Assembly: GCA_963169325.1 (NCBI GenBank) | Contig: CAUJEY010000295.1 | Coordinates: forward strand, 1-64,000 | Source: Bacteroidota bacterium | GTDB taxonomy: Bacteria; Bacteroidota; Bacteroidia; Chitinophagales; Saprospiraceae | Length of the DNA stretch: 64,000 bases | Reading direction: 5' to 3' | Notes under the pieces: model-generated | The model's input: the letters and a program-made list of their open reading frames with translations, nothing else | What the model was told of the DNA's origin: nothing | The model's database searches: none | Translations under genes and position numbers: made by a program | Shown: positions 7,335-51,009 of the stretch, in pieces | Layout of the letters: each line of letters begins with the position of its first letter | Numbering within the stretch: position 1 is the stretch's first letter

Positions 7335-7814
7335 TCAATCCACTTTTATTTTTTGGTCATTTATCACATAAGCCGTAATCGAGGTGCCCGGCGCTATTTC
7401 CGTACCCTGACCGGAAAACTGCCCGCGCAGGCTTTGCTCCTGCCCACTGAGCGGGATCGTCTGACCGTCCACCGACTGCACGTATTGGAGTTCTATCCGG
7501 ATTTCAGCGGGGTTGTTATAAGTCGCCGCTTCGATAGCCTTCACGCGGCCAATCGCTAAGGCGCCGGTACGAATCGCGACTTCTTTTTCAGCGATGACAT
7601 TGGTGCGAACACGGAACTGAATCAGTTTGCCGACGGTCGCCTGATCGGTGGCGATATGCTCGGCGGTTTCCAGTAATACCAACGTACCGGAAGTAAGTGT
7701 GGCTTTATTGTTGAAAAGACCTTTGACGCTGTAATCTGGCGCTTCGAGAGCATCATCCTGGGCAGAAACGAAGGAAGCGAAGAACAGGAGCGAGAGAACG
7801 AGTATATTTTTCAT
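7335..7814 (-). CDS. Small secreted beta-rich protein, paralogue of the gene at 7952-8452
   Basis: 159 residues with a signal peptide ending VSA-Q (about 1-18). The mature part has the pattern LTSGTLVLLETAEHI, then VGKLIQFRVRTNV, then GALAIGRVKAIEAATYNN and VDGQTIPLSG, ending AYVINDQKIKVD. The same pattern is found in the neighbouring gene upstream on the same strand, so the two are tandem paralogues. No catalytic motif is apparent. It is probably a periplasmic or surface beta-sandwich protein of unknown function. The array at 7821-7944 lies just upstream and may form part of its leader. Confidence 0.72.
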   Translation of the reverse strand: MKNILVLSLLFFASFVSAQDDALEAPDYSVKGLFNNKATLTSGTLVLLETAEHIATDQATVGKLIQFRVRTNVIAEKEVAIRTGALAIGRVKAIEAATYNNPAEIRIELQYVQSVDGQTIPLSGQEQSLRGQFSGQGTEIAPGTSITAYVINDQKIKVD

Positions 7815-7820
7815 ATTTCA

Positions 7821-7944
7821 GTTATGTTATGAGTTATGAGTTATGAGTTATGAGTTGTGAGTTATGAGTTGTGAGTTATGAGTTGTGAGTTATGAGTTAT
7901 GAGTTATGCCGAATGTGATAACTCATAACTCATATCTCATAACT
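7821..7944. repeat. Heptamer array (GTTATGA/GTTGTGA) with inverted right arm
   Basis: About twelve 7-bp units GAGTTAT/GAGTTGT run from 7821 to 7908. After about 10 bases, a shorter inverted arm of TAACTCA-type units follows at 7918-7944. The two arms could fold into a long imperfect hairpin. It sits between two same-strand paralogous genes. Confidence 0.9.
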
Positions 7945-7951
7945 AAATTAA

Positions 7952-8452
7952 TTATGCGTTGATTTTCGTATCGTTTAATACCCGGGCGCTCAGGTTGGCG
8001 CCGATGTCGGCCTTGGCAGAATTCGGAGTGGCGTTGACTACGTGCGGGATACTGCGCAGGTTGACCATCTGGCCGTCCACGGCCATGGCGTTCTCCACGG
8101 TGATCGTGATCTCGTACGATTTTCCGTTGTTACATTTTTTCACACTTTTTACCCAACCGGTGGCGGTAGCGCCGGCGGCGATGACCACCTTGCCATTGAC
8201 GGTGACGTTGCTGCGCACAAAGAAGTCGAGCGAATTGCCCACCGAAACCGTCTCCGCGTCGATAGCCTCATTCAGGCTGACATTGACCACGGTGCCGGCG
8301 CTCAGGGCGACCATTTGTTGAAAGTTTGAAGTTTGAAGTTTGAGGTTTGAAGTTGCGAGTTGGGACGGAACGGCGAATGCGGCGGCACTGGCGAAAGCGA
8401 AAGCGGCGGCGATCAGGGAGCGAAGGATAGTTTTTTTCAACATGGCGTACAT
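7952..8452 (-). CDS. Small secreted beta-rich protein, paralogue of the gene at 7335-7814, with a repeat-derived insert
   Basis: 166 residues; starts at 8452 or at the ATG three codons later (8443). Signal peptide about 1-27 (LIAAAFAFASAAAFA). Directly after it, residues about 34-45 (TSNLKLQTSNFQ) are encoded by a short TGAAGTT heptamer array, the same unit found in intergenic arrays elsewhere in the window. The mature domain then follows the paralogue: LSAGTVVNVSLNEAI, VGNSLDFFVRSNV, GATATGWVKSVKK, MAVDGQMVNLRS and ARVLNDTKINA. Function unknown. The insert sits between signal peptide and folded domain, where it should be tolerated. Confidence 0.75.
   Translation of the reverse strand: MYAMLKKTILRSLIAAAFAFASAAAFAVPSQLATSNLKLQTSNFQQMVALSAGTVVNVSLNEAIDAETVSVGNSLDFFVRSNVTVNGKVVIAAGATATGWVKSVKKCNNGKSYEITITVENAMAVDGQMVNLRSIPHVVNATPNSAKADIGANLSARVLNDTKINA
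8320..8354. repeat. Short TGAAGTT heptamer array inside a coding region
   Basis: About five degenerate units of GAAGTTT/GAGGTTT lie in frame within the gene at 7952-8452. The unit is the same as in the arrays at 11562-11639, 37845-37960 and 61490-61548. Confidence 0.85.
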
Positions 8453-8709: not shown

Positions 8710-9144
8710 TTAAAACTCAATCCAATACCCTTCCTCGCCGCGGCGGATCGGATACATTCCTGCGGAGATGATGTTTTGATCAAGTCCGGGAAGATCATTT
8801 TGTATGGATTCTGGCAGAAAATACGGTAGAGGTACCGGGAAAAGGGGGGCTTTGAAAAAAGCGCGCTCCGTGCAGGGCATCATTCCGTTTCGCGGAAAGA
8901 ATACCCGTAAACGCCCTTGGTCGCTAACGCTCAACAGGGCCTGTGCCAACGGGCAGCGGCGTTGTTTTTGGCGGGATACGGCCATGTCTTTGTAGTGGGT
9001 GGTGTTGATGCGGCAAATGCCGATGTTGACGCAGTTGCCATTGGCTTGCAGCACGCCGAATTCGACGTTTGCATGAATAAGGACGGAATCGATGGCCTGC
9101 TCGTGAGGACGAACATGCACATCACTGTGTGTGTAAGCGGTCAT
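8710..9144 (-). CDS. Conserved-looking small protein, function unknown
   Basis: 144 residues, no signal peptide. The N-terminal half is balanced and protein-like (MTAYTHSDVHVRPHEQAIDS, then HANVEFGVLQANGNCVNIGI). It contains three cysteines and several histidines, so metal binding is conceivable but not shown. The C-terminal half is Pro/Phe-rich. The antisense frames have less natural composition, which is why I prefer this strand. I do not recognise a family. Confidence 0.5.
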   Translation of the reverse strand: MTAYTHSDVHVRPHEQAIDSVLIHANVEFGVLQANGNCVNIGICRINTTHYKDMAVSRQKQRRCPLAQALLSVSDQGRLRVFFPRNGMMPCTERAFFKAPLFPVPLPYFLPESIQNDLPGLDQNIISAGMYPIRRGEEGYWIEF

Positions 9145-9363
9145 TAGGACGGGTGATGTTGCCGTTAAGAAATAGTGTTTGTCGGGTAGGCCGGTCTAAT
9201 CCGGAGATACCTATGCGGCGGATTAAAAATCAGGGAGAGGCGGATTAAATTGAAGCGTCAGATGTTTTTGCCGGAGGCGAAACATAAAGAAGAAAAGCCA
9301 AAAACTGTGCCGATTTTGGAGAACAAACCTATAATTACCGGATTTGGTGTACAGACAACACCC

Positions 9364-12164: not shown

Positions 12165-12524
12165 GGACGGTGGACGGTGGACGGTGGACGGTGGACGGTG
12201 GACGGTGGACGGTGGACGGTAGACGGTAGACGGTGGACGGTGGACGGTGGATGGTGGACGGTGGACGGTGGATGGTGGACGGTGGACGGTGGACGGTGGA
12301 CGGTGGACGGTAGACGGTAGACGGTAGACGGTAGACGGTAGACGGTAGACGGTAGACGGTAGACGGTAGACGGTGGACGGTGGACGGTAGACGGTAGACG
12401 GTAGACGGTAGACGGTAGACGGCGGATGGTAGACGGCTGGCTTGCGTTGCAGGTGGCGCAGCCGCCTGCCAGCCGTCCACCGTCCACCGTCCACCGTCTA
12501 CCGTCCACCGTCTACCGTCCACCG
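12143..12524. repeat. Large GACGGT(G/A) heptamer array with inverted arm
   Basis: About forty 7-bp units run from 12143 to about 12432. An inner palindrome follows (GGCTGGC at 12435 pairing with GCCAGCC at 12468), then an inverted arm of CCGTCCA/CCGTCTA units to 12524. The array overlaps the ferritin stop and ends six bases from the stop of the convergent gene at 12531. Long ORFs through it are artefacts of the stop-free minus strand. Confidence 0.95.
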
Positions 12525-12530
12525 TAAATT

Positions 12531-17151: not shown

Positions 17152-17910
17152 ATGACAACCAAAATCGCACTCATCACTGGCGGCAGTCGAGGCTTGGGCA
17201 AAAATATGGCCCTTCGTCTGGCGGAAAACGGTACCGACGTGGTCATTACGTATCACACTAAAAAAGACGAAGCCGAAGCGGTTGTTGCCGAAATCCGGCA
17301 AACGGGCCGGAAGGCTGCATCCATGCAATTGGACGCCGGCGATATAGCCTCCTTCGATCCTTTCTTGGAACAACTTCAAACAACACTACTAACTGAATTT
17401 GGGCGAAGCACCTTTGATTTTCTCGTCAACAATGGCGGTATGGGCGCCACCATTCCCTTCGCCCAGGTAACGGAAGAAGTGTTTGACCGCTTTGTAAACG
17501 TACATTTCAAAGGCGTGTATTTCCTCACGCAAAAAGCGCTGCCGCACATGGCCGACGGCGGACGCATCATCAACATTTCCACTGGAACCACCCGTTTTTG
17601 TGTACCCGGGTATTCTGTGTATGCATCGATGAAAGGCGGGATGGAAACGTTTACGAAGTACCTGGCTAAAGAAATAGGTGCGCGCGGCATGACTGCCAAT
17701 GTAGTAGCGCCGGGTCCGGTTGAAACGGATTTTAACAACGCAGCCATTCGAACCAATCCAGACCGGAAAGCCTACCTGGCCTCCCTTAGCCCTCTTGGCC
17801 GGGTAGGCGAAGCTGGCGATATCGGCGGTGTGGTCGCCTTTCTTTGTTCGGAGGCCGGCGGCTGGATCAATGGCCAGCGGATTGAGGTGAGCGGGGGGAT
17901 AAATCTGTAA
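17152..17910 (+). CDS. Short-chain dehydrogenase/reductase (SDR)
   Basis: 252 residues. Classical SDR features: cofactor motif TGGSRGLGKNMA (9-20), NNG at about 93-95, the Ser of INISTGTT, the YxxxK catalytic pair in YSVYASMKGG and the C-terminal GGWINGQRIEVSGG. The basic residues in the N-terminal region favour NADP(H), as in FabG-type reductases. It starts nine bases after the LolA-like gene and may be in the same operon. The TAA stop runs directly into the array at 17909. Confidence 0.9.
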   Translation: MTTKIALITGGSRGLGKNMALRLAENGTDVVITYHTKKDEAEAVVAEIRQTGRKAASMQLDAGDIASFDPFLEQLQTTLLTEFGRSTFDFLVNNGGMGATIPFAQVTEEVFDRFVNVHFKGVYFLTQKALPHMADGGRIINISTGTTRFCVPGYSVYASMKGGMETFTKYLAKEIGARGMTANVVAPGPVETDFNNAAIRTNPDRKAYLASLSPLGRVGEAGDIGGVVAFLCSEAGGWINGQRIEVSGGINL

Positions 17911-18016
17911 AAGTCAAAATGTAAAAGTCAAAATGTAAAAATTGTGCTCAGTGGGCACGGCACTTTTACATTTTGACTTTTACATTTTGACTTTTAAATT
18001 TTACATTTTGACTTTC
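17909..18016. repeat. Inverted AAAAGTC/AAAATGT array between convergent genes
   Basis: Left arm 17909-17940 (two 14-bp units of two heptamers each) and right arm 17962-18016, its inverted and longer counterpart, enclose about 21 bases. The SDR stop codon abuts the left arm. The pxpA stop lies inside the right arm, which encodes its last residues VKVKM. It may act as a bidirectional terminator. Confidence 0.93.
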
Positions 18017-21421: not shown

Positions 21422-21550
21422 GTTGATTTGTTGATTTGTTGATTTGTTGATTTGTTGATTTGTTGATTTGTTGATTTGAGACACGCTTCAAATCAACAAA
21501 TCAACGAATCAACGAATCAACGTATCAACGTATCAACGTATCAACGTATC
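21422..21550. repeat. Inverted octamer array in the giant gene's leader
   Basis: Seven perfect units of TTGATTTG (21422-21478), an 11-base spacer, then about seven inverted units of AATCAACA, AATCAACG and TATCAACG (21490-21550). The arms can pair as a hairpin of about 55 bp with scattered mismatches. The ATG follows 20 bases later. Confidence 0.93.
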
Positions 21551-32886: not shown

Positions 32887-32898
32887 GAAACCCACCCA

Positions 32899-33058
32899 CC
32901 TTCAAACCAGAAACCTTCAAACCAGAAACCTTCAAACCAGAAACCTTCAAACCAGAAACCTTCAAACCAGAAACCTTCAAACCAGAAACCTTCAAACCAG
33001 AAACCTCCAAACCAGAAACCTCCAAACCAGAAACCTCCAAACCAGAAACCTTCAAATC
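32899..33058. repeat. 15-bp array (TTCAAACCAGAAACC) before dnaK
   Basis: About ten nearly identical 15-bp units end 15 bases before the dnaK ATG. There are no spacers, so it is not a CRISPR. The core AACCAGAAACC recurs at 43930-43945 and 45255-45269. Confidence 0.94.
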
Positions 33059-41137: not shown

Positions 41138-41160
41138 TGTTCGAAAAGTTTTGATAGTCA

Positions 41161-41221
41161 ATGGACGGTGGACGGTTGACGGTGGACGGGGCCTACTGCC
41201 CTTTGCCCACTGCCTGCTGAA
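41161..41221. repeat. Short GACGGTG/CCCACTG heptamer arrays between ccoQ and ccoP
   Basis: GACGGTG and GACGGTT units at 41161-41188 followed by CTACTGC, CCTTTGC and CCACTGC units to 41219. It abuts the ccoQ stop codon at 41222. Confidence 0.85.
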
Positions 41222-41380
41222 TCAGTCTTCCAACGGCAAACGGGCGATTTTGTCCAGGTTGCTGTTTTTGCTGAAAAAGACGCGCACCAGCGCGAAGCAG
41301 AATGTTCCGAAAAAGATCAGCAGGGCCGTTATGCCGAACCACTGGATGCCATCTACGGATTGAAGCAGGTATTTATACAT
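41222..41380 (-). CDS. ccoQ: CcoQ-like small membrane subunit of cbb3 oxidase
   Basis: 52 residues, easily missed. The minus strand gives MYKYLLQSVDGIQWFGITAL, then IFFGTFCFALVRVFF and KIARLPLED, one transmembrane helix (about 13-35) with a basic end. Position between ccoNO and ccoP and the same orientation make it the CcoQ/FixQ subunit that stabilises the complex. The start lies near an array end and the stop abuts another array. Confidence 0.85.
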   Translation of the reverse strand: MYKYLLQSVDGIQWFGITALLIFFGTFCFALVRVFFSKNSNLDKIARLPLED

Positions 41381-41388
41381 GAGTTTTA

Positions 41389-41502
41389 ACGGTTGACGGT
41401 TGACGGTGGACGGTTGACGGTGGACGGTGGACGGTTGACGGTTGACGGTGGGTACATATTGCCGTCTACCGTCTACCGTCCATCGTCCATCGTCTACCGG
41501 TT
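41389..41502. repeat. Inverted GACGGT(T/G) heptamer array between ccoNO and ccoQ
   Basis: Left arm 41389-41451 (units GACGGTT, GACGGTG), spacer 41452-41460, inverted right arm 41461-41500 (CCGTCTA, CCGTCCA units). The ccoNO stop codon follows directly at 41503. Confidence 0.93.
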
Positions 41503-47552: not shown

Positions 47553-47560
47553 TACTTTTG
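47553..47560 (+). promoter_or_regulatory. Bacteroidota-type -7 box
   Basis: TACTTTTG fits TAnnTTTG, 37 bases before the ATG of the prolyl oligopeptidase-like gene. Confidence 0.45.
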
Positions 47561-47596
47561 CGCTGCAAAATTAGGCCAGTAAAACATTCTATTCCG

Positions 47597-49765
47597 ATGC
47601 GAACCCTTATTTTAAATATTTGTTTCTGTTCGATCCCGCTTTTCCTCGCGGTTGCCTGCAACCAGTCCGGCAGTTCCGCTTCCAAAACACAACCCATGCA
47701 GTTTAAAAAAATCCCGGTTACCTACCCGGTTTCACGCCAGGATTCGGCCGTGGCGGATACTTATTTCGATACGACCATCAACGACCCTTACCGCTGGCTC
47801 GAAGACGACCAAAGCGCCGAGACCAAAGACTGGGTGCAAAAGCAAAACGCAGTTACCTTCGGCTACCTGGAGCAGGTCCCCTTCCGGGAAAAAATAAAAA
47901 CCCGCCTGGAGCAAATCTGGAATTTTGAAAAATACGGCACGCCGTTCAAAAAGGCCGGCGTCTATTATTTTTTTAAAAACGACGGACTTCAAAACCAGAG
48001 CGTGCTGTACCGGCAGGCCACCTTGGACGCCCAGCCCGAAGTCGTGCTCGACCCGAATACTTTCAGCGCCGATGGCACCGCGTCGCTGCAGGAATACGCC
48101 TTCTCCAAAGACGGGCGTTACCTGGCCTATTCCATTTCCACGGGCGGTTCGGACTGGCGTTCAATCCGGGTGAAAGACCTGCAAAACGGGCAGCTGCTTC
48201 CCGACCAGGTGGAGTGGGCAAAATTTACCGGGATCGGCTGGGCCGGCAACGGATTTTATTACACCCGTTATCCCGAACCCAAAGCCGGCGCCGCGCTCAC
48301 GGCCGCCAACCAGAACAGCGCCATATATTTTCACCAGTTGGGCGCCCCGCAATCGGAAGACCGCTTGGTGTACCAGGATAAAGCCCACCCGAATTACTAT
48401 TTTAATGCCGGCACCACCGAGGACGAACGTTTCCTTTATTTATCGGGCAGCGAGAGCACCAGCGGCAATATGTTGTATTTCAAAGATTTAGCCAAAAATC
48501 AAAAAGCCTTTACCCCCATCTACACCAAATTCGATCACGATTTTGCGTTGATCGAAAACCTCGACGGCAACCTGCTGATTCTGACCAATCACCAGGCGCC
48601 CAACCAGCGCCTTATCCTGGTCAATTCGGCCCAACCGGCCGAAACGTCCTGGCGTACGCTGGTGCCCGAAGACAGCGCCGACGTGCTGCAAAGCGCCGTG
48701 GTGTGCGGAGGTAAAATTGTTTGTTCCTACCTCCACAACGCCTCCAGCGCCTTGCGGGTGTTTGATTTGGAAGGCAAGTTGCTCCGGGAAGTGGCGCTGC
48801 CCGAAATCGGCACGGTGGTAAATGTGCAGGGCGAAAAGAACGAGGCACAGGCGTTTTTCGCTTTCCAGTCGTTCCTGCGCCCGTCCACAATTTACGCCCT
48901 GGATATGAATACCCTGGAAACCAGTGTGTTCAAAGCACCCAAACTTGATTTTAATTCGGATGCTTACCTGACCGAGCAGGTGTGGGTGACCGGCAAAGAC
49001 GGCACAAAAGTGCCGATGTTCATTACCCGGAAAAAGAATATTTCCTTCGACAGTCAGAACCCCGCACTGCTGTACGGCTACGGCGGGTTTAATATATCCG
49101 TGACGCCGGGATTTTCCGCCTCCAAGGCGGCGCTGCTGGAAAACAACGGGATTTACGCCGTGGCCAACATTCGCGGCGGCGGGGAGTTTGGGGAAAAATG
49201 GCACAAAGCCGGCACCAAATGCCAAAAACAAAACGTGTTCGACGATTTTATCGCCGCGGCGGAATATTTAGTAGACAAAAAATACACCTCGCCCCCGCGC
49301 CTGGCCATCGAGGGCGGCTCCAACGGCGGCTTGCTGGTGGGCGCCTGCATGACGCAGCGGCCCGACCTGTTCGGCGTGTGTTTCCCGAGGGTGGGCGTGC
49401 TCGATATGCTTCGGTACCACCAGTTCACCATCGGTTATGCCTGGGCGGTGGATTACGGCCGCAGCGACAACCAAACGGAGTTCGACTGCCTGATCAAATA
49501 TTCGCCCCTCCACCGTATCCGTAAAACGGCATACCCCGCCACCATGATTACTACGGCCGACCACGACGACCGCGTGGTGCCGGCCCACTCGTTCAAATTT
49601 GCCGCCACCCTTCAGCAATACCAGCAGGGCGACAACCCGGCGCTCATTCGGATCGAAACCAGTGCCGGCCACGGCGCCGGCAAACCAACCGCCAAACTAC
49701 TGGAAGAAGCGGCCGATATGTTGTCGTTTATGCTGTATCAGATGAATGTGGCGCCGGTGTATTAG
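47597..49765 (+). CDS. Prolyl oligopeptidase-family serine peptidase (S9A), lipoprotein
   Basis: 722 residues from the ATG at 47597. Lipoprotein signal with the lipobox Cys in FLAVACNQ (about 20). N-terminal IPVTYPVSRQDSAVADTYFD and DPYRWLEDDQSAETKDWV match the S9A start, followed by a seven-bladed propeller region. The catalytic domain has the nucleophile Ser in EGGSNGGLLVGA (about 574), Asp in TADHDDRVVPAH (about 654) and His in SAGHGAGK (about 690). It cuts short peptides after Pro, outside the cytoplasm. The TAG stop runs directly into the inverted array at 49764. Confidence 0.95.
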   Translation: MRTLILNICFCSIPLFLAVACNQSGSSASKTQPMQFKKIPVTYPVSRQDSAVADTYFDTTINDPYRWLEDDQSAETKDWVQKQNAVTFGYLEQVPFREKIKTRLEQIWNFEKYGTPFKKAGVYYFFKNDGLQNQSVLYRQATLDAQPEVVLDPNTFSADGTASLQEYAFSKDGRYLAYSISTGGSDWRSIRVKDLQNGQLLPDQVEWAKFTGIGWAGNGFYYTRYPEPKAGAALTAANQNSAIYFHQLGAPQSEDRLVYQDKAHPNYYFNAGTTEDERFLYLSGSESTSGNMLYFKDLAKNQKAFTPIYTKFDHDFALIENLDGNLLILTNHQAPNQRLILVNSAQPAETSWRTLVPEDSADVLQSAVVCGGKIVCSYLHNASSALRVFDLEGKLLREVALPEIGTVVNVQGEKNEAQAFFAFQSFLRPSTIYALDMNTLETSVFKAPKLDFNSDAYLTEQVWVTGKDGTKVPMFITRKKNISFDSQNPALLYGYGGFNISVTPGFSASKAALLENNGIYAVANIRGGGEFGEKWHKAGTKCQKQNVFDDFIAAAEYLVDKKYTSPPRLAIEGGSNGGLLVGACMTQRPDLFGVCFPRVGVLDMLRYHQFTIGYAWAVDYGRSDNQTEFDCLIKYSPLHRIRKTAYPATMITTADHDDRVVPAHSFKFAATLQQYQQGDNPALIRIETSAGHGAGKPTAKLLEEAADMLSFMLYQMNVAPVY

Positions 49766-49842
49766 TTGATTGGTTGAATTGGTTATTGGTTGAATGGTTA
49801 TTGGTTGAATGGTTATTGGTTGAATGGTTATTGGTTGAATGG
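49764..49842. repeat. Left arm of inverted 15-bp array (GGTTATTGGTTGAAT)
   Basis: About five units on the plus strand. It starts at the stop codon of the S9A peptidase and provides the TAA stop and last codons of the four-helix-bundle gene. Its inverted partner is at 50275-50353. Confidence 0.94.
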
Positions 49843-50238
49843 TTCATCTGGAGTATCCTCGTCTTTTGGTGTTTTTGCTTTTAACAGGTATTTGATATAA
49901 CCGTTTAAAAGTCGGCCGCATGAGTCAATTCTTGTTTTATAGTCTTTTAACATGTCTGCGGTAATATAACCTTCATCAAAACCTGTGACTAAATGCTCAA
50001 GAGTTTCAGAAAGTGAACCTCTGGCCATTCGGCAATATTGAACATTCTCTTTATAATAAAAACGACCATGCCCTTCTGCGATACATGCGGTAATACGGCG
50101 TGAAGAACGGATGACCTGATCGCTGAGTTTGTATTTTTCGTGTTCAGGAAAATGGATTTTAACCATTTCTGCGATGCTTTTACGTAGAAGCCTACATTCT
50201 TTATAAACTTCTAAATCTGTAAATGGTAAAAAGGCCAT
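49828..50238 (-). CDS. Four-helix-bundle protein (23S rRNA IVS / S23 / Avd-like family)
   Basis: 136 residues from the ATG at 50238; the longer TTG start is less likely. The pattern fits the family: FTDLEVYKECRLLRKSIAEM, then FPEHEKYKLSDQVIRSSRRI, IAEGHGRFYYKENVQYCRMA and RGSLSETLEHL. Related proteins occur in 23S rRNA intervening sequences and as accessory protein Avd in diversity-generating retroelements; they bind nucleic acid as pentamers. The gene is enclosed by inverted 15-bp arrays, and its stop is provided by the left array. No reverse transcriptase or rRNA is nearby. Confidence 0.9.
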   Translation of the reverse strand: MAFLPFTDLEVYKECRLLRKSIAEMVKIHFPEHEKYKLSDQVIRSSRRITACIAEGHGRFYYKENVQYCRMARGSLSETLEHLVTGFDEGYITADMLKDYKTRIDSCGRLLNGYIKYLLKAKTPKDEDTPDEPFNQ

Positions 50239-50274
50239 TCGACGAGTTATTTTCCTTTTAAACAATTTAATTTT

Positions 50275-50353
50275 TCAATCAACCACTCAACCAACAACCA
50301 CTCAACCAATAACCACTCAACCAATAACCACTCAACCACTCAACTAATCAACC
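50275..50353. repeat. Right arm of inverted 15-bp array (AACCACTCAACCAAT)
   Basis: About five units, the reverse complement of the left arm with one base changed per unit (GGTTGAGT instead of GGTTGAAT). It contains the TAG stop of the phosphopantetheinyl transferase gene and lies 37 bases before the start of the four-helix-bundle gene. Confidence 0.94.
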
Positions 50354-51009
50354 ACACAAACGGTCCAAACGAACGCCCCGGCATCGGGCAGTTCCATTTT
50401 TTCGAAATGCAGGCGGTAGGATTGGTTGAAACCGGCTTTTTGAATCCGGCCCGGCGCTTCGGCAGAAAATCCCGTCCACTCGAAGGGCTCCAGGCGCATA
50501 TTGGCGCGGAAGTCGAGTTCTTTTAGTCCGTAGGCTTTATACAAACTTTCCTTGGCGGTCCAGAAAATATGCAGCAGATCGAATTGTTTTTCGGCGGTAA
50601 ACTGCTGAACGAACGCGGCTTCTTCGGGGTGTAAAAATTTATGCGCGATATGCGGCATTTTATCCACCAGCACTTGCAGGTCGCAGCCGCACACCCGGTC
50701 GGCCAGCAGGGCGCCCACGATGCCGTGCGAATGGCTGAGGGAGCAATGGAGTTCGGGCCGGTCGAGAAAAAAGGGTTTGGCAAAAGCGTTTTTGCCCAGC
50801 GGTAAACGTTCCTGCAATCCGGTCAGTTTGTGCAACATCCAGCGTACGGCCAGCCATTCCAGGCGGCGAATATCCTTGTAGCGCGCCAGTTCGGACTCTT
50901 CTTCGGGCAGCAATGGCAGGTCTTCCCGGAAATACGCTTCATCTTCGGCAATTTGCCAAACGCCGAAGGTGGCGGAAGGAAACGGGTGGGTAGTAAGTAG
51001 GAGCGGCAT
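50344..51009 (-). CDS. 4'-phosphopantetheinyl transferase (Sfp type)
   Basis: 221 residues. The Sfp/AcpT magnesium and CoA motifs are visible: LSHSHGIVGALLA (about 92-104), VCGCDLQ (about 106-112) and the WTAKESLYKAYG signature (about 151-162). It attaches the phosphopantetheine arm of CoA to carrier proteins. The length matches the Sfp class and not the short AcpS class. There is no carrier protein adjacent. Confidence 0.93.
   Translation of the reverse strand: MPLLLTTHPFPSATFGVWQIAEDEAYFREDLPLLPEEESELARYKDIRRLEWLAVRWMLHKLTGLQERLPLGKNAFAKPFFLDRPELHCSLSHSHGIVGALLADRVCGCDLQVLVDKMPHIAHKFLHPEEAAFVQQFTAEKQFDLLHIFWTAKESLYKAYGLKELDFRANMRLEPFEWTGFSAEAPGRIQKAGFNQSYRLHFEKMELPDAGAFVWTVCVVD

Follow-up and report, generated by a model that had tools for sequence, protein, structure and literature searches.

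A four-helix-bundle gene boxed by inverted short-unit arrays probably belongs to a family of small selfish elements in bacteria

The 64,000-nucleotide stretch of DNA analysed here (the window; positions 1 to 64,000 of contig CAUJEY010000295.1, assembly GCA_963169325.1, from a member of the Saprospiraceae) contains, between two protein-coding genes, a pair of inverted arrays of short tandem units that encloses a single small gene. The gene (49828-50265, minus strand) encodes a four-helix-bundle protein of the S23/IVP type, recognised by a profile match to PF05635 and by its predicted fold. The left arm (49766-49847) is built of about five copies of a 15-nt double unit (7+8 nt), ATTGGTTGAATGGTT, and the right arm (50278-50359) carries the same unit inverted; neither arm is assigned a strand. 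Tandem Repeats Finder (TRF) reports the 15-nt period at 49769-49844 on the left (5.0 copies, 98% matches) and at 50280-50359 on the right (5.2 copies, 89% matches), and the arms form an inverted pair of 82 nt that is 84% complementary with a spacing of 430 nt. Read on the other strand, the right unit is mostly ATTGGTTGAGTGGTT, a constant A/G difference from the left unit. An initial annotation made from the sequence had described the arrays as inverted copies differing consistently at one base, and the tandem-repeat calls, the inverted pair and the A/G difference all agree with it.

That annotation had also placed the block exactly between two stop codons, which holds on one side only. The left arm begins directly after the stop of an S9 prolyl oligopeptidase gene (47558-49765, plus strand), whose 3' end forms the left edge of the element, but the right arm reaches about 16 nt into the open reading frame (ORF) of a phosphopantetheinyl transferase (PPTase; 50344-51009, minus strand; identified as an ORF with a profile match). 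Both neighbours lie outside the element. Translated from a TTG at 50265, the enclosed gene encodes 145 aa; a start at its first ATG (50238) would give 136 aa. Its last codons and stop (CCATTCAACCAATAA) are supplied by the left array.

The window protein matches PF05635 with an E-value of 7.2e-26 (90.9 bits; curated cut-off 33.8) and TIGR02436 with an E-value of 5e-22 (78.2 bits; curated cut-off 24), which bears out the earlier assignment of the one enclosed gene to an S23/IVP/Avd-like family. PF05635 is its sole family at E ≤ 0.001, with no match to Y1 (HUH, PF01797), and no PADLOC family that would link it to defence was matched. In the predicted model (predicted local distance difference test, pLDDT, 88.6), four long helices form a four-helix bundle; Foldseek places the solved fold of Xcc0516 nearest (2GSC; template-modelling scores 0.75/0.92), followed by BT_0352 (2RLD) and then Avd. 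A match to PHROG 3206, 'Avd protein of DGR' (diversity-generating retroelement), at 3e-7 joins the fold in suggesting a DGR link, for which fold and profile are the only grounds. Six near-invariant polar residues (Q49, R52, E63, R67, S83 and E86) are striking for a plain bundle. Of 16 pairs compared, seven have a usable dS (high in several); in these seven the ratio of nonsynonymous to synonymous substitution rates (dN/dS) is 0.05-0.13, which indicates a protein under purifying selection.

We surveyed the window's own genome (8.07 Mb in 349 contigs, with the window on contig C295) by an alignment scan that located inverted array pairs and scored arms with match +1, mismatch -1 and gap -3/-1; a blastn self-comparison misses short hairpins. 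Each of the eight PF05635 genes in this genome is enclosed by inverted short-unit arrays; the arms score 92, 23, 32, 61, 46, 38, 58 and 46. The units differ by locus (ACGGTGG, AGTTTGA, GTTATGA, the window's TTGGTTATTGGTTGA, GGGGTTTG, GGGTTTAAC, ATGATGA and a AAATGTAAATTTGAA type), and an eight-by-eight cross-match of upstream against downstream flanks gives its highest scores solely on the diagonal. As a control we took 394 kb, picked to include the PF05635-bearing contigs, in which 4 of the 296 ORFs that do not overlap PF05635 loci score at least 20 (2/106 for ORFs of 80-200 aa); the window gene scores 52 under the same scheme. The 394 kb hold 45 inverted array pairs, with loops of at most 70 nt in 29 and of 401-600 nt in eight, and all eight of the latter are the PF05635 loci. 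The 29 short-loop pairs have a period of about 7 nt too, and their first arm favours G over C in 23 cases and the reverse in three.

PF05635 genes are present in 54 of 60 relatives and in 232 of 296 genomes sampled across the phylum, and most of the copies examined are armed. With the best-scoring locus of each of 29 relatives, 25 reach a score of 15; in relative G022, 10 of 11 copies were examined and all score at least 24, and in relative G034, 7 of 10 were examined and all score at least 22. Within 20-kb regions from 20 relatives, four-helix genes score at least 15 in 15/20 and at least 20 in 12/20 cases, compared with 17/316 and 6/316 for other ORFs; the lower four-helix scores in this set probably arise in part because the chosen ORF ends took in parts of the arms. 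In the phylum sample, 23 of the top 30 loci reach 15. A scan of GTDB contigs, from which the best 80 of 584 relatives were taken, gives at least 15 for 66/80 four-helix genes and for 54/573 other ORFs at the same loci (Mann-Whitney p 3.9e-34). Loci labelled as lying outside Bacteroidota within these best 80 of 584 reach 15 in 14 of 17 cases, many of them in metagenome bins whose labels can err; the armed ones include Kiritimatiellota, Omnitrophota, Acidobacteria, Clostridia, Selenomonadales, Desulfosarcina, Thiohalocapsa and Gottesmanbacteria. Of 25 plasmid records with hits, 12 were scored (11 from cyanobacteria, one from Gemmatimonadota) and all 12 are armed, with scores of 17-33 (z 3.9-13.3) and units such as TAGGGAG, ACAGGGA, AGGTGAC and AGCTTTT. 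Records from an animal pathogen were also among the plasmid matches. The initial annotation had raised the possibility that other copies of the gene lack such arrays; all eight in the same genome and most elsewhere carry them.

Arm anatomy was examined at 146 of 147 loci (one short-flanked locus was left out), 119 of which score at least 15. In these 119, the 5' arm resembles itself most at lags of 7, 14 and 21 (self-similarity 0.58, against 0.26-0.34 at other lags), and a lag of 7 or 14 scores best in 88 of 118 five-prime arms. The arms are polarised, with more G than C in the 5' arm at 107/119 loci, the reverse at eight and equality at four. Read inward, 59/119 arms close all three frames, against 27/119 read outward, and stop codons as the cause of arm polarity are suggestive only. 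Own arm pairs have a median score of 20 and mismatched pairs one of 10. Mismatches between arms at the 119 loci divide into 154 that are compatible with wobble pairing on the sense strand and 202 that are not.

Empty counterparts of armed copies come from plasmids. On Nostoc-type plasmids, locus L448 differs from the empty site L446 by a 417-nt insertion, with flanks 90% identical, that opens with TCAGGAG units and closes with their inverse. At a TraM site, L431 has GGGAACA arms and the gene, L441 and L442 are empty (the flanks of L441 are 97 and 95% identical to those of L431), and L443 has gene-less GGGAACW arrays. A different element with other arms sits at L437, one gene further along the neighbourhood in which L447 and L448 carry theirs, and empty counterparts were also found at nrdB-nrdA and integrase sites. 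At some sites the insertion has taken the place of roughly 12-45 nt of spacer, and the ends of L447/L448 (TTCTA/TTCT) are suggestive only as a target duplication. One 417-nt element, 78-82% identical including its arms, occurs in three unrelated neighbourhoods (L448, L453 and L454/L455), whose flanks have no similarity at E 1e-3 except L454 versus L455. In Halotia, a copy without the gene retains the arm and start-codon context of this element and so looks like an internal deletion.

Between ftsA and ftsZ, the site of one copy in the window's genome, arms and gene are found in 5 of 30 genomes (this one included), a gene-less inverted repeat scoring at least 18 in another 5/30 (four of them short-unit arrays by eye), and scores below 18 in 20/30, two of these at 16; the closest relative, with an FtsZ 96% identical, has a plain 60-nt spacer there. 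At a site that we take to be ilvB-ilvN, a window-type gene is present in three congeners, one is cut by a contig end in G016 and a decayed remnant lies between arms in G006. In 29 congeners, the available sequence downstream of the S9 peptidase (about 0.1-1.5 kb each) yielded no four-helix gene, apart from one weak match with 146 four-helix queries (L082; 53 aa, 9e-5) in a genome that has no PF05635 match; an inverted repeat scoring at least 18 follows the peptidase in 17 of the 28 congeners with sufficient sequence, and many of these, not all, are by eye short-unit arrays with other units. Decayed four-helix copies in matched arms, one with an internal TGA and one of about 41 residues, occur at L007 (G000:C190) and L425:1995-2114, which fits gene loss that leaves a gene-less array. 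The initial annotation had named as refuting the presence of the arrays at this place in genomes without the gene, with no boundary at it; gene-less arrays do occur, but the close empty sites put a boundary at the outer edge of the arms.

The unit beside the gene follows the protein it flanks. The seven closest relatives of the window protein that we examined (L309-L315; 48-71% identical) sit in other neighbourhoods, and their arms consist of units related to TTGGTTATTGG or GGTGATTGG. Within the window's genome 38 matches to the window unit were counted, of which 33 fall at 12 further places; a reversed-pattern control gives 10 matches but, here and in the genome-wide test below, says little, since the unit is almost unchanged when read backwards. 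Ten of these places were viewed, and comprise six clear inverted pairs, one weak pair and three single arms. Arrays of the window class (at least two copies) are present in 8/8 genomes with a full window-type gene and in 5/53 without one (Fisher 4e-7, uncorrected for phylogeny), and of the five array-positive genomes without a full gene, one is G016, with its contig-cut gene, and another G006, with its remnant. Across orders, protein identity and arm similarity correlate with rho 0.224, where shuffles within orders give 0.134 +/- 0.043 and reach the observed value in 4/500.

We consider it likely that the window locus represents a family of small selfish elements that measure about 420-620 bp and consist of two inverted arms, made of a locus-specific repeat with a period of about 7 nt, and a single S23/IVP gene between them. 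The sequence comparisons above show that arms and gene occur together across bacteria; that on cyanobacterial plasmids the two come in as a single insertion, placed at gene boundaries; that one and the same element occupies unrelated sites; that gene-less inverted arrays with the same unit are dispersed in the genome, and gene-less inverted repeats lie at syntenic sites; and that the arm unit tracks the protein subfamily. The best reading is a selfish element resembling the repetitive extragenic palindromic (REP) sequences and their RAYT genes, whose only protein is an S23/Avd-fold bundle and whose layout, like that of an intervening sequence (IVS) but between protein genes, is otherwise familiar from rRNA. 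The initial annotation had suggested that the gene is the working part, or a cargo, of a REP/RAYT-like spreading system, and the association, the block insertion and the unit specificity all support this suggestion.

In such an element the protein would recognise hairpin DNA or RNA of its own unit and would promote the copying or insertion of anything bounded by such arms: its own element in cis and gene-less hairpins in trans. It has no recognised nuclease domain and so would probably act with another enzyme. Identity of the arms within a locus may be kept by arm-to-arm copying while they are paired, together with slippage of the tandem units. With arms at stop codons and stop triplets that read inward, insertion at gene ends would be tolerable. 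A DNA hairpin or cruciform is weakly preferred over RNA as the form recognised, because the arm mismatches do not favour sense-strand wobble pairs.

Several observations weigh against this reading. Profile searches recognise no enzyme, catalytic or transposase domain in the element protein. No close empty site was found for the window copy, since the S9 3' ends are not syntenic with the PPTase in 29 congeners, and the insertion evidence is therefore drawn from other copies. Four-helix genes score below 15 in 14/80, 7/30, 4/29 and 5/20 cases in the GTDB, phylum, relative and 20-kb samples, respectively, and the own partner arm beats all of 40 random foreign arms at just 79/146 loci, because related units recur. 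The loops of gene-less window-unit hairpins look unrelated to one another by eye, so what spreads is not one fixed hairpin. Arms belonging to the gene itself are included in the genome-wide unit test (in G026, five of the seven listed matches), although those of the window gene do not fit the pattern used. The link between unit and protein is partly phylogenetic and modest once host order is controlled, and within the window's own order the correlation is weak (p 0.056). Sense-strand RNA pairing of the arms was tried as a component and rejected: the wobble-asymmetry test (154 versus 202) runs opposite to expectation, so an RNA stem function is kept solely as a rival. Finally, both mobility and recognition are read from sequence comparison.

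That rival, in which the arms are an RNA stem for RNase III processing or termination, the protein binds the stem and spread is a side effect, is the strongest of the alternatives and still, in our view, unlikely. The window-element transcript is predicted to fold so that roughly 75 bp pair in a closing stem (z = -10.7), the protein fold is close to that of Avd, a partner of reverse transcriptase (RT), and, in the portions of PMC4990558 used here, a 23S rRNA IVS shares both the protein family and the layout, with a 28-bp stem and an S23 ORF in its loop. Long inverted repeats fold well as RNA regardless of function, however, the arm mismatches have no sense-strand G-U bias, and none of 20 four-helix loci matches an rRNA model. 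Improbable by comparison is passive hitch-hiking, by which arrays would arise at gene ends through slippage or hairpin template switching and the gene would be a frequent passenger in long loops. It would account for the far greater number of gene-less arrays (loops do not exceed 70 nt in 29 of the 45 pairs) and for inverted repeats that differ between species at the same place, but not readily for the filling of every 401-600-nt loop in the 394 kb by a PF05635 gene, for the rarity of other ORFs in such arms (4/296), for a unit that follows the protein across genomes or for arms and gene that arrive together.

Two further explanations carry very little weight. That the gene is an Avd serving a genomic RT, as part of a DGR or retron, seems to us very improbable: the PHROG 3206 match, the Foldseek matches to Avd and to a DGR ribonucleoprotein, and the presence of four RT genes in the genome, one of them (on C341) about 5.4 kb from another four-helix gene, are set against the stand-alone Xcc0516 rather than Avd as nearest solved fold, the location of all four RTs off contig C295 and the scores of only 9-10 for RT ORFs, which lack inverted arms. 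A DGR or retron partnership was rejected on these last two points. The RT gene and four-helix gene on C341 lie at G000:C341:2873-3499 and 8877-9188, a link judged by distance only. Ordinary terminators around an ordinary gene, which we can hardly credit, would fit arrays that are inverted and often begin at stop codons; but the arms lie upstream as well as downstream, the unit is matched within a locus and differs between loci, the heptad period extends across phyla, and block insertion and empty sites further disfavour the idea.

The selfish element proposed here invites comparison with several described systems. The consulted parts of PMC4990558 describe rRNA IVSs of Leptospira, Coxiella and others as sporadic and selfish; that of Coxiella is about 430 nt, located in 23S rRNA, with a 28-bp stem whose loop holds an S23 ORF. 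The window element is alike in that its long terminal inverted repeats form a stem with an S23-family ORF in the loop, but IVSs lie inside 23S rRNA helices and are excised by RNase III, whereas this element lies between protein genes, its arms are tandem arrays with units of about 7 nt, and arrays without the gene occur dispersed. An rRNA location was considered and rejected: the window locus (L004) lies between the S9 peptidase and PPTase genes, and 20 loci, this one included, gave no rRNA match. For REP/RAYT systems, the available sections of PMC2817692 report RAYT genes between two inverted REPs, co-variation of unit and protein, repeats dispersed without the gene, and cognate REP abundance that tracks RAYT presence. 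As in these systems (including REP doublets forming hairpins, REPINs, and bacterial interspersed mosaic elements, BIMEs), the present gene is flanked by two inverted copies of a dispersed repeat, gene-less arrays occur beside armed genes like REPs without a RAYT, and cognate array abundance tracks the gene (8/8 versus 5/53 genomes). The protein, unlike a RAYT, is an S23/Avd-fold bundle rather than a Y1 HUH transposase, and the arms consist of short tandem units that change in sequence from one locus to the next. RAYT membership was rejected; the three Y1 genes of the genome sit on contigs without a PF05635 gene.

The elements also resemble insertion sequences and miniature inverted-repeat transposable elements (MITEs) in that the Nostoc-type plasmid copies are discrete 417-nt insertions with an empty site, and differ from insertion sequences in that the element protein matches no transposase family. 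They share a four-helix-bundle fold with the DGR protein Avd, which would be expected to have an RT nearby, unlike the window gene on C295. Heptanucleotide repeats reportedly go back to Mazel in 1990, under the name STRR (short tandemly repeated repetitive sequences). The parts of PMC4692102 used here describe heptameric repeats of Xanthomonas and Nostoc as G-rich 7-nt tandem intergenic units, with 70 inverted pairs in Xanthomonas campestris, and cite heptanucleotide repeats of Calothrix; those of PMC4679880 describe TAACTGA repeats of Beggiatoaceae that have stops in all three frames and for which a mobile repeat-binding protein was suggested. The present arms resemble both in their 7-nt tandem units in intergenic DNA. 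The same parts of these two papers name no four-helix or S23 gene, whereas here the gene lies inside the arrays in 12/12 plasmid copies scored.

Additional arrays and gene-repeat arrangements came up along the way. In the window, further inverted short-unit arrays at 7812-7956, 12195-12525, 17908-17996, 21422-21545 and 41155-41499 have loops without a PF05635 gene, and their units ACGGTGG, GTTATGA and AAAATGTAAAAGTC resemble those at PF05635 loci elsewhere in the genome; at 32898-33056 the 15-nt unit ACCTTCAAACCAGAA forms a direct array (10.6 copies, 98%), and the array scan reported no inverted partner for it. In congener G009 an AACAACC heptad array (L427:1528-1575) lies, by eye, apparently inside the reading frame of a PPTase homologue. 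Three armed four-helix genes sit inside CRISPR-Cas operons of cyanobacterial plasmids (L432, L434 and L439), twice as cas6-gene-cas4 and once as cas10-gene-cmr3. The sole other ORF in the window's genome that scores in the upper range of the four-helix genes is a 150-aa ORF, family unknown, at L039:12745-13537, between 110-nt inverted arms of AAGTCTTCAGACTT-type palindromes (score 46).

Two other small gene families also occur inside inverted repeats. GxxExxY genes (L138-L167), presumably PF13366, reach 15 at 23/30 loci and 20 at 21/30, with arms that by eye belong to other classes (CRCAGAG, CGCAAAGG and GATTnnAGGATT types), and two copies in the window's genome (L382 and L383) score 135 and 17; this is a possible second gene-repeat partnership. 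A possible third involves small GIY-YIG genes (L108-L137), of which 13/28 loci reach 15 and 8/28 reach 20, several with arms of GTCATCCTGAGCGnAGCGAAGGA type; the copies L130, L384 and L385 in the window's genome score 149, 66 and 12.

New here is an S23-carrying stem-loop element outside rRNA that is tied to bacterial heptameric repeats. We recognised no report that joins S23 or four-helix genes to such arrays in a full-text literature search that reached few subscription papers and no preprints. A wider proposal, which we regard as a real possibility short of probable, is that S23/Avd-fold proteins are the recognition, perhaps catalytic, proteins of an undescribed class of transposable elements. 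The heptads of cyanobacteria, Xanthomonas, Beggiatoaceae and Bacteroidota would then be arms and internal-deletion copies, the conserved polar residues (Q, R, N, E, R, S and E in SIPSNIAEGxGR ... GSxxE) would form a nucleic-acid active or binding site, and rRNA IVSs would be copies that landed in rRNA. Many gene-less short bacterial repeats do look like shortened relatives of the element.

The element gives a gene, and hence a testable mechanism, to two puzzles: the origin of heptameric repeats and the role of the S23/four-helix family. It predicts that each class of array pairs with a subclass of the protein, such that the unit beside a gene would tell which dispersed repeats that gene serves. 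If the protein drives the spread, it would be a repeat-spreading protein without a known nuclease or integrase domain.

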